Origin: a virus
Virus record (IMG/VR): IMGVR_UViG_3300020433_000003
Location: 1-64,000 of that record
Reading direction: 5' to 3' (one strand)
DNA: 64,000 nucleotides
The first letter of the stretch is position 1. Every line of letters begins with the position of its first letter. The translations under genes and the position numbers were made by a program. This document shows positions 53,754-62,695 of this stretch, one piece after another. The notes under the pieces are model-generated. The model did no database searches. It saw nothing but the letters and a program-made list of their open reading frames with translations, and was not told where the DNA came from.

Positions 53754-54793
53754 TGCTTGGTTCATACAATTACAACGGTATAATAAAGAAGACCGTTGTA
53801 GGATTTGGTACGTTATTTAATAATATAGAAGTCAGACGTACGTCTGGTTCTAAGACAGAGGTCATGAAAGTGCCCCTTGCTTATGGACCTAAACAGAAAT
53901 TCTTAGCACGTTTAAGACAGTTAGGTGACTTGACAACAAGGGATCAGGTACAGATTACATTACCTAGAATATCATTTGAGATACAAGGTATTAATTATGA
54001 TCCTACTAGAAAGGTATCACCAACACAATATATTAGACATAAATCAGGCACCAAAGAGAACAAAGGATTCATGCCTGTTCCTTACAATATTAATTTTGAG
54101 TTAGCAATATTAAGTAAAAACCAAGATGATGCTCTACAAATACTAGAACAGATACTTCCATTCTTCCAACCAAGTTTCAATATCACAATGAATCTTGTAC
54201 CAGAATTAGGAGAGACAAAAGATTATCCTGTAACACTGACAAGTATTGATTACGGAGACGAGTACGAAGGAGACTACGATACCAGAAGAACGTTAATATA
54301 TACATTGCAATTCATTGCTAAGACATACATGTACGGTCCAGTAGTTGATAACTCTGGTCAACTTATCAAGAAGACTATTATCGACTACTCTACTGAGGCA
54401 GTTAGAACTGCACCAAGAGAGGTACGTTATGTTGCTACACCTAGATCTCTTGTTGAAAGAGATAACAATGCAGTCACAACTGTATCAGCAGATATAGATG
54501 ATAATGATGGCATTATAAATGTAACAGACGCATCTGGAATATCATTGAAAGATGACATTCAGATAGATAGTGAGGTAATGCGTGTCACAAAAATTGTTGA
54601 CAACAAACTATATGTTGCTCGTGCGTTTAATAATTCAACCATAGCAGAACATGTAGCGAGTTCAAATGTATTCATCATAACAAGTGCAGATCATGCATTG
54701 TTAGACTCTGATGATGACTTTGGATTCAACGAACTTTATAGTGAGTTTACTGATGGAAAATCAAGAAACCCAACCACAGGAGCAGACGAGTAA
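53753..54793 (+). CDS. 15: Tail sheath stabiliser and completion protein gp15
   Basis: Protein of 346 residues (T4 gp15, 272 aa). The start (YNYNGIIKKTVVGFGTLFNNI, then VPLAYGPKQKFLARLRQ) and the central DALQILEQILPFFQPSFNITMN block are clear gp15 features. gp15 forms the hexameric ring at the top of the tail that stabilises the sheath and joins the neck. Residues about 242-316 hold a strand-rich module (DGIINVTDASGISLKDDIQI, then EVMRVT, then YVARAF) that also appears in gp18 and the gp7-like protein, and may be an addition. Its end overlaps the probable gp16 start. Confidence 0.92.
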   Translation: MLGSYNYNGIIKKTVVGFGTLFNNIEVRRTSGSKTEVMKVPLAYGPKQKFLARLRQLGDLTTRDQVQITLPRISFEIQGINYDPTRKVSPTQYIRHKSGTKENKGFMPVPYNINFELAILSKNQDDALQILEQILPFFQPSFNITMNLVPELGETKDYPVTLTSIDYGDEYEGDYDTRRTLIYTLQFIAKTYMYGPVVDNSGQLIKKTIIDYSTEAVRTAPREVRYVATPRSLVERDNNAVTTVSADIDDNDGIINVTDASGISLKDDIQIDSEVMRVTKIVDNKLYVARAFNNSTIAEHVASSNVFIITSADHALLDSDDDFGFNELYSEFTDGKSRNPTTGADE

Positions 54794-55202
54794 GTTTGCT
54801 GGTATCGAGGATGCCCTCGATGTCAAGACTGAAATTATGCAGACAGACACTTCTATTAAGAAGGTGGAACCTAGTGCAGATATATCAGATAAACAACAAC
54901 TTAAAAAAGATTATGAATATACCAGAGGCAACTTGTACACACTAATTGATAAAGGACAAGAAGCAGTAGATGGTATTTTAGAACTTGCACAGGAGTCTGA
55001 TCAACCAAGAGCATATGAAGTTGCAGGACAACTCATAAAGCATGTTGGTGACGTGGCAGACAAGTTAGTTGATCTACAAAAGAAGGTCAATGAAATAGAA
55101 AATCCAGGCAAAGGAAAACAAACAGAAGTCACTAACAATACCATGTTCGTTGGTAGCACTGCTGATCTTGCAAAATTCTTAAAGCAAGAAAAGGATAAAT
55201 AA
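54753..55202 (+). CDS. 16: Terminase small subunit gp16
   Basis: Protein of about 149 residues from ATG 54753; T4 gp16 has 164. FAGIEDALD near the N-terminus and a central helical region (KKDYEYTRGNLYTLIDKGQEA, then AGQLIKHVGDVADKLVDLQKK) fit the gp16 family, whose coiled-coil core forms rings that regulate the packaging motor. The chosen start overlaps gp15 by 41 bases; an ATG at 54711 would give a longer N-terminus, which looks unlike the family. Its partner, gp17, lies 5.8 kb downstream behind accessory genes rather than adjacent as in T4. Confidence 0.85.
   Translation: MENQETQPQEQTSKFAGIEDALDVKTEIMQTDTSIKKVEPSADISDKQQLKKDYEYTRGNLYTLIDKGQEAVDGILELAQESDQPRAYEVAGQLIKHVGDVADKLVDLQKKVNEIENPGKGKQTEVTNNTMFVGSTADLAKFLKQEKDK
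55194..55201 (+). promoter_or_regulatory. T4-like late promoter-like element
   Basis: GATAAATA overlapping the gp16 stop codon, ending 24 bases before ATG 55226, with TAGGAGAA as a ribosome site in between. One mismatch to TATAAATA. Confidence 0.6.
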
Positions 55203-55765: not shown

Positions 55766-58120
55766 ATGCCCGCAGTCTCAAAGAAACAACAAAGGTTCTT
55801 CGGGATGGTTAGAGCGTTTCAAAAAGGGGATTCGACGCAAGCTCCCTCATCTGAGGTTGCCAGAGTTGCTTCCAGCATAAAAATGAAAGATGCAAAGAAG
55901 TTTGCATCAACTAAACATAAAGGATTACCAGAAAAGAAAGTGAAAAAAGAATCAGTAGAGCATGTAGGTAATTCTGATTTTAGATCATCAGCAGAGTTTA
56001 TGAACACCTTTGCTAAACTAAAAAGACTTCGTAAGAAGAACGACAAAATCGGCACAGGTAATACAGGTCTACCACAAGGTGTCGCCCAAACTAATAGGAG
56101 AGGTAAAATGCAAGGTGTCGAAGAGGCAGCAATAGGTACAGCAGCAGGCGGTGGTGCTGTTACTGGGAGCACCTCATATACAGGACCTAACAAAGCAGAC
56201 AGAAAAGTTATCAAGAAAATGGATAACAAAAAGTTTGCTGCTAGACTAGCAGATTACGAAAAGAACATGGATCCTAAAAAGCGTGAAGCACTTAAAGACA
56301 AAGCAACTAAGGGTATGAAATTTACACACGAAGGTACATCATATGGTCTCTACAAAGGTGATGGTAAACCTAAGATGCAGTTTGCAGCATTTGTAAAGAA
56401 AGTTAAACCACCAGAAACAAAGAAGAAATCTGTAAAGAAAGAAGAAGTAGAACAGATTGCTGAATTAGATACAACAACATTACATAGTTATGTAACCAAA
56501 GCATCATCTGACGCAGTTAAGACAGGAGTTGATGCTGGTATTGCAGGCATGGCGGGAAAAGATAAGAAGAGAGATAAAAAGTTAGATAAGGCATACAAGA
56601 GGTCAAGAGGAATCAATCGTGCTGCTACTAAGTTAGCAATGAGAGCAATCAAAAAAGAAGAAGTAGAACAGATTGATGAATTAAGTAAGACAACTACTGC
56701 GAACTATCTTTACCGAGCAAGGTTTGATAAAGATTATGTTCACGGTGGTAAGATGGGTAAGTATGGCAAAGCGAGAGATAAAGGAATAAAAAGAGCAGAG
56801 AAAAAATTAGGAAAAAAAGCAAGTGATAGACTTAGATATGTTGCAAAATATGATTCTGATGCAATGAGACAAGATTCAAATAAATCAGAATATCCTAGAA
56901 AAATTAAGGTCAAAGAAGAACCAGAAGTATATTGGTCAAGTAAAGCATTAGATCAGTTAGATCAATTAAACGAAAGACAAAAGGATAGTGACAACCAGAG
57001 ATTAAGTCAGGAACGTGGTCGTTCTAATTATGGTAAAGCATCTATTAGAAACGTAAGACACACAGGTGAGGGTGGTAATGCTGCTGATCCTGCTGAGAGA
57101 CTTGTGGCAATGGATAAGAGACACAAAGCACACAAGGAAAAGCGTGGTGTAAAAACCCTATCAAAATATAAGAAGGTTGTAAAAGAAGAGGGTTACGATC
57201 ATTACAGAGACAACATTCTTATGAAAGGTGGAGACCACAGGTCAAAAGAGACTAAGAATAGAGTCAATACCCCTGGTCAACCTATGAAAGGTAAGACTGC
57301 TGCACAGAAAGCAGCGAAGGGAAAGACTGCATTAGAACTGGTAAAAGCGAACATTAGACAAAAATATGGAAAAGGTGCTATAATGGGTGAGGCACTTAAT
57401 CCAAAACTGCAAGCAGTCCAGGATAAGGCAAAAGCGAACGTAGCAAAGCAAGCAGCGAAAGCTGCTGCTGACAAGAAAGCGAGAGCAGATTCTGCTGCTA
57501 AGTTCCAAGCACATAAGAAGAGTGAAATGGCAAAGGGCAAACGTCCTGACCAAGCACTTGACTCGTGGCAACAGAAAAAGTTAAAGAAAGAGGATGTAAT
57601 GTCATTCTCTGATTTCCTTAAAGAAGGAAATGATCGTGCTCGTATGATGTCAAAAGCAAAGAACCAGACTACTGGTAGTATTGCAGCAGACAGAGGTACA
57701 GACGAAAAAAAGAACCGAGAGAGTCGTAAGAGTCTCGAAAAGGATCTTAAAAAGAAAGGGATTGGTTATAAAAAATCAGTCGGTAGTTATAAGTATGATG
57801 ATGGATCTACTGGTAGGGAAGTATCCTACCAAACAAGTCCTGGCAAGGGAATGTCTAAGCGTAGGTTTGGAAAACTTACACGTCGTTTAGGACGTAAGCA
57901 TGGACAGGAATCAGTGATTACTAAGAAGGCAGGGAAACCCGCTAGATTACATGATACTGAATCTAAGAAACCTGGCAAGTCATACAATCTCGGCAAAGAA
58001 GTAAAGAAAGGTAAGAACCCCTCTGGTGAAGGTGAAACATCCGCAACCAAAGTAAGGGGCGGTAAACTACCTAAGAAAACTAAACCTAACTCAACTTATC
58101 ACTATGGCAAAAAGAAATGA
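55766..58120 (+). CDS. Lys-rich DUF3008-type protein, possible processed head protein
   Basis: Protein of 784 residues, extremely basic. Residues 1-58 match DUF3008 (VSKKQQRFFGMVRAFQKG, then KKFASTKHKGLPEKK). Two near-identical segments, KKEEVEQIAELDT and KKEEVEQIDELSK, lie about 72 residues apart. The middle is Lys/Ala-rich helix; residues 612-621 are MSFSDFLKEG; the C-terminal ~150 residues contain a compact block (SYKYDDGSTGREVSYQTSP, then RRFGKLTRRLGRKHGQESV). Several sites fit the T4 gp21 protease rule (Leu/Ile-x-Glu). I infer a DNA-binding or core protein of the head that may be cut during maturation. The family is common in marine phages but its role is not established to my knowledge. 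Confidence 0.7.
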   Translation: MPAVSKKQQRFFGMVRAFQKGDSTQAPSSEVARVASSIKMKDAKKFASTKHKGLPEKKVKKESVEHVGNSDFRSSAEFMNTFAKLKRLRKKNDKIGTGNTGLPQGVAQTNRRGKMQGVEEAAIGTAAGGGAVTGSTSYTGPNKADRKVIKKMDNKKFAARLADYEKNMDPKKREALKDKATKGMKFTHEGTSYGLYKGDGKPKMQFAAFVKKVKPPETKKKSVKKEEVEQIAELDTTTLHSYVTKASSDAVKTGVDAGIAGMAGKDKKRDKKLDKAYKRSRGINRAATKLAMRAIKKEEVEQIDELSKTTTANYLYRARFDKDYVHGGKMGKYGKARDKGIKRAEKKLGKKASDRLRYVAKYDSDAMRQDSNKSEYPRKIKVKEEPEVYWSSKALDQLDQLNERQKDSDNQRLSQERGRSNYGKASIRNVRHTGEGGNAADPAERLVAMDKRHKAHKEKRGVKTLSKYKKVVKEEGYDHYRDNILMKGGDHRSKETKNRVNTPGQPMKGKTAAQKAAKGKTALELVKANIRQKYGKGAIMGEALNPKLQAVQDKAKANVAKQAAKAAADKKARADSAAKFQAHKKSEMAKGKRPDQALDSWQQKKLKKEDVMSFSDFLKEGNDRARMMSKAKNQTTGSIAADRGTDEKKNRESRKSLEKDLKKKGIGYKKSVGSYKYDDGSTGREVSYQTSPGKGMSKRRFGKLTRRLGRKHGQESVITKKAGKPARLHDTESKKPGKSYNLGKEVKKGKNPSGEGETSATKVRGGKLPKKTKPNSTYHYGKKK
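56438..56683 (+). repeat. Direct repeat of 30 bp, 216 bp apart
   Basis: Positions 56438-56467 and 56654-56683 are identical except for one base; both encode KEEVEQI(A/D)EL. The 216-bp spacing equals 72 codons. It marks an internal duplication or a repeated processing/binding motif in the Lys-rich protein. Confidence 0.8.
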
Positions 58121-58229
58121 CAATGGCGTTTATGAATGCCAATACTGTGGACTGACTGCACCGTTAGGACACGCACGTCCAAGAACTTGGATGGAAAAAC
58201 ACGAAATGAATTGTGCTAAGAAACCATGA
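58104..58229 (+). CDS. Zinc-finger microprotein, 41 aa
   Basis: Small frame of 41 residues (ATG 58104, TGA 58227-58229). CQYCG, then H23, then HEMNC supply Cys12, Cys15, His33 and Cys37, a plausible single zinc site of C2HC type. The rest is basic. It starts inside the 3' end of the Lys-rich gene (17-base overlap) and its stop overlaps the next start (ATGA), so coupled translation is likely. Function unknown; nucleic-acid or protein binding would fit. Confidence 0.65.
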   Translation: MAKRNDNGVYECQYCGLTAPLGHARPRTWMEKHEMNCAKKP

Positions 58230-58591
58230 TCCTATCATTTAAAGAGTATTTACAAGAAGCATCCAACTGCCCTGACGGTAAAAAGTATTGCCCGAAGTGT
58301 CAGATGTGTGTTGAGAAAACTTGTGAAGAAAAGAAAATGATGAAGGAAGAAGCATGGCAAAGAAAGGAAGGTAAGAACAAATCTGGTGGTTTAAATGAGA
58401 AAGGGAGGAAATCTTATGAGAGAGCAAATCCTGGTTCTGACTTAAAAGCACCAAGCAAGAAGAAAGGTAATAAGAGAAGAGCAAGTTTCTGTGCTAGAAT
58501 GAAAGGTATGAAACGAAAACTTACATCAGCAAAAACTGCTCGTGACCCTGACTCTCGTATAAATAAATCACTACGAGCGTGGAACTGCTAA
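58226..58591 (+). CDS. DUF6321-like basic protein with capsid-targeting-like N-terminus
   Basis: Protein of 121 residues. The C-terminal ~75 residues (KSGGLNEKGRKSYERANPGS, then RRASFCARMKGMKRKL, then DPDSRINKSLRAWNC) match the DUF6321-type domain of phage proteins as I remember it. A Cys cluster (CPDGKKYCPKCQMCVEKTC) could bind zinc. The N-terminus MILSFKEYLQE-AS resembles the T4 capsid-targeting sequence MKTYQEFIAE and ends in Leu-x-Glu, the gp21 cleavage rule. This suggests an internal head protein packaged with DNA. It starts by ATGA overlap with the zinc-finger microprotein. Confidence 0.75.
   Translation: MILSFKEYLQEASNCPDGKKYCPKCQMCVEKTCEEKKMMKEEAWQRKEGKNKSGGLNEKGRKSYERANPGSDLKAPSKKKGNKRRASFCARMKGMKRKLTSAKTARDPDSRINKSLRAWNC
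58558..58565 (+). promoter_or_regulatory. T4-like late promoter inside the end of the DUF6321-like gene
   Basis: Perfect TATAAATA within the last codons of the upstream gene, ending 27 bases before ATG 58593. It would drive the membrane-protein/PTOX/PcyA segment late in infection. Confidence 0.65.
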
Positions 58592-60371: not shown

Positions 60372-61056
60372 AGTCTCTTCATTAATTAGACATAAGATAT
60401 TAACTTTACCCGCACTTAAACCATTAGATAATCCACATCCCATTGTAGAGAATGAGGATGTGTTTATTATTAATGAAATGAATAAGTGTAAGGGTCTAAG
60501 AAAAGTACATTTAGAAACTGGATATACAAAGAACATTGAGGTCATGCACTGTGTGTTCTTTCCTAATCCAGAATACCCTTTACCTATATTTGGTGCTGAT
60601 ATAGTTGCAACACCGAAGATAATTACTGCTGCGATCTGTGATATATCTCCTGTACATAAGGCAAATAGTATATACTATGGTCTAGATTTAATTGCACAAC
60701 AGTATAAGTTTAAAGAAAGAAGACAGTTACCAGAGTGGGCAGATATATTTTCAGACTATGTACAGTTCATGCGTATACGAGACAACAAAGAGAAAGATAT
60801 GTTTGTCGAGTTAGTCAGTAGATACCTAGACATCTACATTGAGCATGTATATGGTGCCAAGAGAGATCAGAACTGGATAAATAATATGAAGAGAATGGAT
60901 GATCAGATCTGGTATTGTAAACAACAAAGGCAGAACAAGAAAACCAAGGCAGTCCTTGGACAATGGTTCGATCCTGAGTGGGCAGATGATTACATCAACA
61001 ATACTTTATTTGATGTACCTAATAGTAATTGGCAATGGTGGATGAATGGCGACTGA
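60319..61056 (+). CDS. pcyA: Phycocyanobilin:ferredoxin oxidoreductase (PcyA)
   Basis: Protein of 245 residues, the usual PcyA length. It aligns along its length with cyanobacterial PcyA: LRKVHLE, MHCVFFPNPEYPLPIFGADIV, AAICDISPV, RQLPEWADIFSDY, WYCKQQRQNKKTKAVL and NNTLFDVP. The catalytic residues of Synechocystis PcyA (His74, Glu76, His88, Asp105) correspond to His64, Glu66, His77 and Asp94. PcyA reduces biliverdin to phycocyanobilin with four electrons from ferredoxin; Glu76 is the residue tied to the extra vinyl reduction, which argues against PebS/PebA. No heme oxygenase gene is in the window to supply biliverdin. The start overlaps the preceding gene; the end overlaps gp17 by 11 bases. 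Confidence 0.93.
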   Translation: MTNSKSSKTTLTGNLVHEVSSLIRHKILTLPALKPLDNPHPIVENEDVFIINEMNKCKGLRKVHLETGYTKNIEVMHCVFFPNPEYPLPIFGADIVATPKIITAAICDISPVHKANSIYYGLDLIAQQYKFKERRQLPEWADIFSDYVQFMRIRDNKEKDMFVELVSRYLDIYIEHVYGAKRDQNWINNMKRMDDQIWYCKQQRQNKKTKAVLGQWFDPEWADDYINNTLFDVPNSNWQWWMNGD

Positions 61057-62695
61057 ACATCAGTATCTAGGTAACCCTAATTTAAAAAAAGCAAACGTTG
61101 CACAGAGTTTTACTCCGTCACAGGTGAAAGAGTTCGTCAAATGTTCTCAGGACCCTGTGTATTTTATTAAGAAGTATATTAGAATCGTCTCGCTAGATAA
61201 AGGTCTTATACCATTTGACTTGTATGACTTCCAAGAAGATATGGTCAACAAGTTTAATGACAATAGATTCAATATTGCTAAGTTACCTAGACAGTCTGGT
61301 AAGTCTACCGTTGTTACATCATACTTATTATGGTATGTAATCTTTAATGATAATGTGAACGTAGCAATCCTTGCAAACAAAGCAGCGACTGCTAGGGAAA
61401 TGCTACAACGTCTACAATTAAGTTATGAAAACCTCCCAAAATGGATGCAACAAGGAATCAACCAGTGGAACAGAGGTTCTCTGGAACTTGAAAACGGCAG
61501 TAAAATCATGGCTGCTTCTACTTCCGCTTCTGCTGTCAGGGGTATGTCATTTAATATTATATTTCTGGACGAATTCGCGTTCATTCCGAATCACATTGCT
61601 GACCAGTTTTTCAGTTCTGTGTATCCTACTATATCTTCTGGTAAATCAACAAAAGTTATTATCATATCTACACCACATGGTATGAACATGTTCTATAAAC
61701 TCTGGCATGATGCTGAGAGACAGAAGAACGAGTACGTTACCACTGAGGTACACTGGTCACAGGTGCCAGGTAGAGATGCAGTATGGAAAGAACAGACCAT
61801 AGCGAACACATCAGAGGAACAGTTCAGAGTTGAGTTTGAGTGTGAGTTCCTGGGATCTGTTGATACTCTTATCTCCGCATCTAAGTTGAGGATGATGACA
61901 TATGATGACCCTATACAGAAAAACAAAGGACTAGATGTATATGAAAAACCAGAGAAAGATCACCAGTATTGTATAACTGTTGACGTAGCAAGGGGTGTGA
62001 CGAAAGATTATAGTGCGTTCTGTGTCATAGACACAACAACAATACCATATAAGGTGGTAGCAAAATATAGAAATAACACAATTAAACCACTACTATTTCC
62101 TAATACCATATATGATGTCGCGTGTGCGTACAACCATGCGTTTGTATTGGTGGAGGTAAATGATATTGGCGGGCAGATTGCGGACATGCTGCACTATGAT
62201 TTGGAGTATGACAATATCCTTATGGCATCTATGCGCGGACGTGCAGGACAGGTAGTAGGACAAGGGTTCTCTGGTACTAAGGTACAACTAGGAGTCAAGA
62301 TGAGTACAACTGTCAAGAAGACAGGGTGTTCTAATATGAAACAGTTGATAGAAGATGATAAGTTACTGATATCTGACTACGACATCATTGCAGAACTGAC
62401 TACATTTATACAGAGAGGTCAGGCATGGGAAGCAGAAGAGGGTTGTAATGATGACCTTGCTATGTGTCTGGTTATGTTTTCATGGTTAGCAACATCAGAT
62501 TACTTCCGTGAACTACATGACAATGACGTCAGAATGAGAATGTATCAGGAGCAGAAGGATCAGATCGAAGCAGACATGGCACCTTTTGGTTTTATTGACA
62601 CAGGCATGGAGGAGGAAACCATAATTGACAATGAGGGTCAAGTATGGCATACTGATGAGTATGGCGATATGTCTTACATGTGGGATTACAGATGA
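61046..62695 (+). CDS. 17: Terminase large subunit gp17
   Basis: Protein of 549 residues (T4 gp17, 610 aa). Walker A is PRQSGKST at residues 81-88; Walker B with the catalytic Glu is IIFLDE at 171-176; motif III is IIISTP at 205-210. The RNase H-like nuclease follows: ITVDVARG gives the first Asp, VLVEVND the Glu, and CNDDLAMCLVMF the last Asp. gp17 is the ATP-driven motor and headful nuclease that fills the prohead with DNA. It overlaps pcyA upstream and the next membrane protein downstream (ATGA). Confidence 0.95.
   Translation: MATEHQYLGNPNLKKANVAQSFTPSQVKEFVKCSQDPVYFIKKYIRIVSLDKGLIPFDLYDFQEDMVNKFNDNRFNIAKLPRQSGKSTVVTSYLLWYVIFNDNVNVAILANKAATAREMLQRLQLSYENLPKWMQQGINQWNRGSLELENGSKIMAASTSASAVRGMSFNIIFLDEFAFIPNHIADQFFSSVYPTISSGKSTKVIIISTPHGMNMFYKLWHDAERQKNEYVTTEVHWSQVPGRDAVWKEQTIANTSEEQFRVEFECEFLGSVDTLISASKLRMMTYDDPIQKNKGLDVYEKPEKDHQYCITVDVARGVTKDYSAFCVIDTTTIPYKVVAKYRNNTIKPLLFPNTIYDVACAYNHAFVLVEVNDIGGQIADMLHYDLEYDNILMASMRGRAGQVVGQGFSGTKVQLGVKMSTTVKKTGCSNMKQLIEDDKLLISDYDIIAELTTFIQRGQAWEAEEGCNDDLAMCLVMFSWLATSDYFRELHDNDVRMRMYQEQKDQIEADMAPFGFIDTGMEEETIIDNEGQVWHTDEYGDMSYMWDYR

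Follow-up and report, generated by a model that had tools for sequence, protein, structure and literature searches.

Two basic proteins of a T4-like cyanophage are probably cargo of a T4-type head-loading system. Their genes lie within the first 64 kb (positions 1 to 64,000, the window analysed here) of the 79.85-kb virus record IMGVR_UViG_3300020433_000003. One is a Lys-rich protein and the other contains a DUF6321 domain. Each has an element resembling the T4 capsid-targeting sequence (CTS), adjoining a predicted cut site for the prohead protease gp21. After targeting and cleavage, both proteins would be packed with DNA and injected, leading to depletion of S-adenosylmethionine (SAM). Hence, the virus probably injects a SAM-lyase counter-defence enzyme together with its DNA. 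The relevant features are as follows.

55766..58120, + strand: Lys-rich precursor, 784 residues, isoelectric point (pI) 10.2, 18.5% K
57605..57625, + strand: CTS-like motif F614-S-D-F617-L618-K-E620, kept in 87 of 89 loci and matching the targeting and processing positions of T4 IPIII
57625/57626, + strand: predicted gp21 cut after E620, at the CTS-like motif of the Lys-rich precursor
57626..58117, + strand: predicted mature product, G621-K784, 164 residues, basic, with the SAM-lyase (PII-like) domain
58226..58591, + strand: DUF6321 protein, 121 residues, pI 9.9, 7 Cys
58238..58258, + strand: N-terminal CTS-like motif F5-K-E-Y8-L9-Q-E11 of the DUF6321 protein
58259, + strand: predicted cut before Ala12 of the DUF6321 protein
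58370..58582, + strand: DUF6321 domain (PF19846), residues 49-119

The Lys-rich open reading frame (ORF), a 41-residue ORF and the DUF6321 gene occupy the interval between gp16 (54711-55202) and gp17 (61046-62695). In the Lys-rich precursor, mosaic N-terminal modules (residues 1-611) are followed by the internal CTS-like element and then the C-terminal SAM-lyase domain. The sequence MSFSDFLKE/G, where the slash marks the predicted cut, corresponds to residues 612-621 (M612 to G621). The DUF6321 protein starts MILSFKEYLQE/AS, as confirmed by translation of ORF 58226-58591. Here F5, Y8, L9 and E11 reproduce the N-terminal CTS spacing of T4 (aromatic at 4, aromatic at 7, I/L at 8 and E at 10), one residue later. 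A gp21-type site, (L/I)xE followed by A, G or S, ends the element in both proteins (FLKE/G and YLQE/A). Both are basic, with pI values of 10.3 for the 173-residue form starting at M612 and 9.9 for the DUF6321 protein. The initial annotation of this DNA, made from sequence alone, had located both elements correctly, with ATG 57599 at codon 612 of the Lys-rich ORF. Its suggestion that two basic proteins carry CTS-like elements ending in gp21-type sites is also upheld. Note that the element of the Lys-rich protein lies at residues 614-620 of 784, and not N-terminally as in a CTS. We therefore describe this protein as working like an internal protein, rather than filing it as one.

Downstream of the window, the last 16 kb of the record encode the portal, the S77 prohead protease gp21, the scaffold gp22 and gp23. 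Family matches for the head genes are PF03420 (E 8.5e-36), PF25623 and PF07068. Hence, a T4-type cleavage system is present. In T4, IPII and IPIII begin MKTYQEFIAE/A, and IPI begins MKTFKEFTSTTTPVSTITE/A (NC_000866). Mutational work on IPIII assigns targeting to residues 4 and 7, and processing to residues 8 and 10, with gp21 cutting after (L/I)xE (PMC9026906). The window elements share with IPI, IPII, IPIII and Alt the spacing Y/F4, F7, I/L8, E10 and the (L/I)xE/A or G site. Also shared with the T4 internal proteins are a basic mature protein and a genome encoding both a gp21-type S77 protease and a gp22 scaffold. Unlike those proteins, the Lys-rich protein has an internal element (residues 614-620) and a SAM-lyase domain as its cargo. 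None of the family scans reported a sequence match between the window proteins and T4 internal proteins. Note that T4 offers precedents for counter-defence by injected proteins, as IPI counters GmrSD and IPIII is required on ECOR17 (PMC9391042; PMC3012670).

To count such elements in whole genomes we used the expression [FYW]xx[FYW][ILVM]xE[AGS], which was set after inspection. Internal matches are few, at 1-4 in each genome of 25,000-77,000 residues. Six cyanophage genomes together have 8 matches at protein N-termini, where the internal density predicts 0.42 (Poisson P about 2e-8). This is more than expected by chance. In T4, the expression has five matches, including ipII, ipIII and an internal gp23 site, FGSFLTE/A. 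Conservation was assessed by anchoring on the downstream domain and examining the preceding residues in 89 loci, which are related to each other and contain 59 distinct 29-mers. The E/G pair precedes the domain in all 89. In 87, an aromatic-x-x-aromatic-[ILVM] stretch comes before E/G with a variable linker (pattern [FYW]xx[FY][ILVM]..E/G); the remaining two are near misses. Among 39 directly spaced variants, entropy is 0.79 bit at the first aromatic, 0.48 at the second and 0 at E. Position 8 is intermediate, and most neighbouring columns are at about 2-3 bits. The conserved positions match those used by T4 for targeting (4 and 7) and processing (8 and 10). We conclude that the motif before the C-terminal domain is not there by chance.

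The same domain also exists as a gene in its own right. Stand-alone P-SSM2_114 (PSSM2_114) has the N-terminus MRTFQEFLQLCE/G, and similar genes, on contigs L243-L256, begin with the motif. Wider homologs start MKTFKEFLEE/S, MKNFEEFKDQAQEELEE/S, MKTYKEFIQDIQE/S and MKDFDSFLEEFDRDQESLEE/S. Across these, the head of the element and the cut site are kept while the spacer varies, as between T4 IPI and IPIII; the variable spacer resembles that of IPI. Since stand-alone homologs start with the element, it is most likely N-terminal in origin, and the window protein looks like a fusion, its internal element being the former N-terminus of an ancestral gene. Unannotated small proteins starting MKSFKQFLEE/A (PSSM2_115, L003:5501-5761) and MKSFKSFLSE/S (L006:6131-6448) adjoin the SAM-lyase gene or region. 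Both are candidates for additional head cargo.

What the initial annotation missed is the identity of the piece that would be released. Its interpretation as a whole is partly supported, and the SAM-lyase domain supplies a function for the cargo. The 173-residue region matches Pfam S-AdoMet_lyase (PF23780) with E 3e-5. P-SSM2_114, 54% identical to the window domain, scores 32.6 bits, above the cut-off, as does gp6 of cyanophage S-CREM2 (70.1 bits; 36% identical over 168 residues from the motif on, E 1e-11). The window domain itself scores below that cut-off, so its placement relies on homology to these family members. Svi3-3 binds SAM through Gly56, Tyr58, Glu69, Gln104, Glu105 and Ser106 (PMC7877911). 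The counterparts, numbered in the 173-residue reading, are G62, Y64, E74, Q103, E104 and S105, and these are invariant in cyanophage alignments (A1, and also A2 and A3). Equivalence was assigned by spacing and motif, with the E and Q regions bridged through an alignment of gp6 with T3 SAM lyase. The codons concerned are listed here.

57818..57820, + strand: codon for E74, which is E685 of the full protein and the equivalent of catalytic Glu69 of Svi3-3; invariant in A1, A2 and A3 (PMC7877911)
57905..57913, + strand: codons for Q103-E104-S105, equivalent to Gln104-Glu105-Ser106 of Svi3-3; invariant in A1, A2 and A3 (PMC7877911)

An AF2 model of the domain has the b-a-b-b-a-b order of a ferredoxin-like PII fold. 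The top Foldseek match in the PDB is a phage SAM lyase (6ZNB), and the T3 lyases 8bb1 and 7ock are within the first ten. Sequence-profile comparison of the domain against the PDB found no SAM lyase, and an NCBIfam search gave nothing useful. The bridge in sequence to known lyases is the match between S-CREM2 gp6 and T3 SAM lyase (E 0.02). Like the phage SAM lyases Svi3-3 and T3 SAMase (PF23780), the window domain has the b-a-b-b-a-b core and the Gly, Tyr, Glu, Gln, Glu and Ser residues of the active site. Unlike them, it has very basic, Lys-rich tails, a CTS-like leader and a long mosaic N-terminal fusion. By homology and fold, the C-terminal domain is a SAM-lyase (PII-like) domain that keeps its active-site residues and may be active. 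The substrate could be SAM or SAM-AMP (PMC12255297).

Virion proteomes of other cyanophages bear on whether such proteins are in the head. For S-CREM2, the source is a published study (PMC10665884). There, mass spectrometry (MS) of virions detected the SAM hydrolase gp6 (19 peptides), kinase gp14, cytidylyltransferase gp154, Cas9-like gp12, and also gp13, gp136 and gp137. A virion SAM hydrolase has therefore been reported already. These proteins include homologs of both window proteins, since gp137 ends in DUF6321 and gp6 is the SAM-lyase homolog described above. Unlike the window protein, gp6 is stand-alone, is encoded in another genome region, and has 414 residues with an extra C-terminal part. 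We saw no discussion of the gp6 tag in that study. The sequences of gp6 (N-terminus MKDFDSFLEE), gp13, gp14, gp136 and gp154 all begin with a CTS-like element. At residues 3-5, the element occurs in 5 of 50 detected ORFs and none of 169 undetected ORFs (P 5e-4). A looser test, biased toward the undetected group, gave 7 of 50 and 3 of 169 (P 0.0015).

The cytidylyltransferase has been detected in virions of S-SM1, S-SZBM1 and S-CREM2. Nearly all of its complete relatives that we read, down to 42% identity, have the N-terminal element; the lone exception (L328) has F in place of L at position 8. Typical N-termini of this NMNAT-like protein (T4-GC 190; L240:693-1844, L273-L330) are MKKFSAFLKE/A and MKSYRDFLSE/A. 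The annotation 'similar to Synechococcus phage S-SM1 protein' stands on gp13-15 and on T4-GC 119, 190 and 403, but not on gp16 or gp17; it seems to mark the MS-detected set, yet we gave it no weight as proof of detection. The Cas9-like gp12 has RFASFMAE/A at residue 18 (L337:4705-7314), so this virion nuclease might be head cargo. Two genes from the S-CREM2 virion SAM lyase is a DNA adenine methylase, gp8 (L337:2246-3136), also found in S-H34 and S-N03. A SAM-using methylase beside a SAM-destroying enzyme suggests that the two act at different times.

We envisage the following pathway. During prohead assembly, the CTS-like element, [FYW]xx[FY][LI], would bind the scaffold core, and gp21 would cut the adjoining (L/I)xE/(G/A) site. 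In the Lys-rich protein, cleavage between E620 and G621 would separate the long N-terminal part from the basic SAM-lyase domain of 164 residues. A cut before Ala12 would take the N-terminal element off the DUF6321 protein. Both mature basic proteins would then be packed with the DNA and injected. Finally, the lyase would destroy SAM, weakening defences that depend on it, for example restriction-modification and BREX. For the window phage, cleavage, head location, injection and lyase activity are all steps that we infer.

Several observations weigh against this account. The CTSs of T4 are N-terminal, and targeting by an internal CTS is unproven. In some S-CREM2 proteins with the element, the P1' residue is Q, E or D, rather than A, G or S. 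The S-CREM2 authors also note that the virion enzymes might be CsCl contaminants. Furthermore, MS of S-SZBM1 virions (30 proteins, with table entries matched to genes by protein length) detected neither the 707-residue SAM-lyase fusion (_194) nor the DUF6321 protein (_192), nor _191, which starts MKSFKSFLSE. Since the K/R-rich mature products of _194 and _192 give few usable tryptic peptides, this negative is partly excused, but only partly. The window domain scores 24.4 bits with PF23780, below the gathering score of 28, and its structural model is modest (core pLDDT 72-86; Foldseek E only 5e-3).

The initial annotation had suggested a possible separate start inside the Lys-rich gene.

57599..57601, + strand: candidate nested ATG, with AAAGAGG 5 nt upstream; not conserved, and probably unnecessary

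Translation from this ATG would yield a 173-residue protein with its own N-terminal CTS. The local sequence, AAAGAGG-ATGTA-ATG, is present as described, and the ATG with GAGG also occurs in close relatives, more strongly in L029 (AGGAGGAG). Furthermore, T4 gene 21 has an internal start (PMC9026906; also annotated). As a ribosome-binding signal, the sequence is at background level. Shine-Dalgarno matches of at least 4 precede 6 of 26 gene starts in the window and 28 of 245 internal ATGs (3 of 20 in the Lys-rich gene), a likelihood ratio of about 2. Among 42 motif variants, a start codon is found in the five codons upstream in only 18, and a match of at least 4 in just 6; the motif is conserved in fused versions without any start. 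A separate nested product is hence quite unlikely, and we rejected it as the main route. Internal cleavage fits better. The E620/G621 bond is the sole [LI]xE[AGS] site among the 784 residues, although shuffled sequences average 0.8, so the count alone is not significant. A single gp21 cut would free the domain, and no nested product is needed.

Other explanations dispense with injection. The Lys-rich protein could be a gp22-like scaffold or core protein, its motif only a gp21 site, with the pieces leaving the head. This would account for S-SZBM1 virions lacking a detected Lys-rich version, and the T4 gp23 site shows that such a motif can be cut without being a tag. However, a lone cut site is incompatible with gp22-like shredding, which we discarded; the motif also delimits a conserved enzyme domain, and the S-CREM2 homolog is in virions. 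We consider a core role unlikely. It also seems improbable that the protein is a cytoplasmic SAM lyase acting only during infection, with virion detection of gp6 reflecting carry-over and the motif an ancestral relic. While the caution over CsCl carry-over is consistent with this, as is the cellular expression of T3 SAMase as an early protein (PMC8406200), the tag is common to the S-CREM2 virion enzymes and not to undetected proteins. Moreover, the motif is kept in all lineages seen, and the gene's neighbours in most phages examined serve the head, neck or packaging. Finally, the motif is short and degenerate, and its expression was chosen with the sequences in view, so coincidence or a generic amphipathic helix must be considered. 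Rarity, the N-terminal excess and conservation make either highly improbable.

Enzymes recur in cyanophage virion proteomes, and whether they are cargo or CsCl carry-over is a question that the S-CREM2 authors say they cannot settle. With its targeting and processing residues known, a short tag offers a testable rule for head-loaded proteins. We lean towards a wider generalisation, in which marine T4-like cyanophages load an enzyme arsenal into their heads using a T4-style tag, sometimes internal to a gp21-cut mosaic precursor, so that a sequence search for the tag would reveal head cargo. Members would include the SAM lyase, the NMN-adenylyl/cytidylyltransferase, an APH-like kinase, the Cas9-like protein and DUF6321 proteins. 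Some widespread marine phages may then inject a SAM-destroying enzyme before any phage gene is expressed, whereas T3 must first express its SAMase. No paper in our literature search connected the enzymes of cyanophage virions with a head-targeting tag of T4 type; the one text mentioning both capsid targeting and cyanophage was a T4 review, where the latter appears solely among the references.

The DUF6321 protein matches PF19846 with E 7e-23 and 81.4 bits, above the gathering score of 28.5. Of 16 closed DUF6321 ORFs shorter than 200 residues, 13 have CTS-like N-termini similar to that of the window protein. Its predicted model (pLDDT 78) matched no solved fold, and a literature search on DUF6321 found nothing. 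The C-terminal domain is common to other DUF6321 proteins (PF19846; T4-GC 119; S-CREM2 gp137), which are usually long mosaics, whereas the window protein is a short, CTS-led form. Mosaic N-terminal modules like those at 55766-57598 (+ strand; also L001, L008, L012 and L242), of MPAVSKKQQ.., YTGPxKADRK.. and VYWSSKALD.. types, are exchanged between proteins ending in the SAM lyase and those ending in DUF6321. From their sequences, the precursors look as if assembled from interchangeable basic modules. Between the two genes, a Cys-rich, zinc-ribbon-like ORF of 41 residues (MAKRNDNGVYECQYCGLTAPLGHARPRTWMEKHEMNCAKKP; 58104-58229, + strand) overlaps the 3' end of the Lys-rich gene and, by ATGA, the start of the DUF6321 gene. 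S-WAM1 has a homolog at the same place, and S-SZBM1 has a 45-residue gene there.

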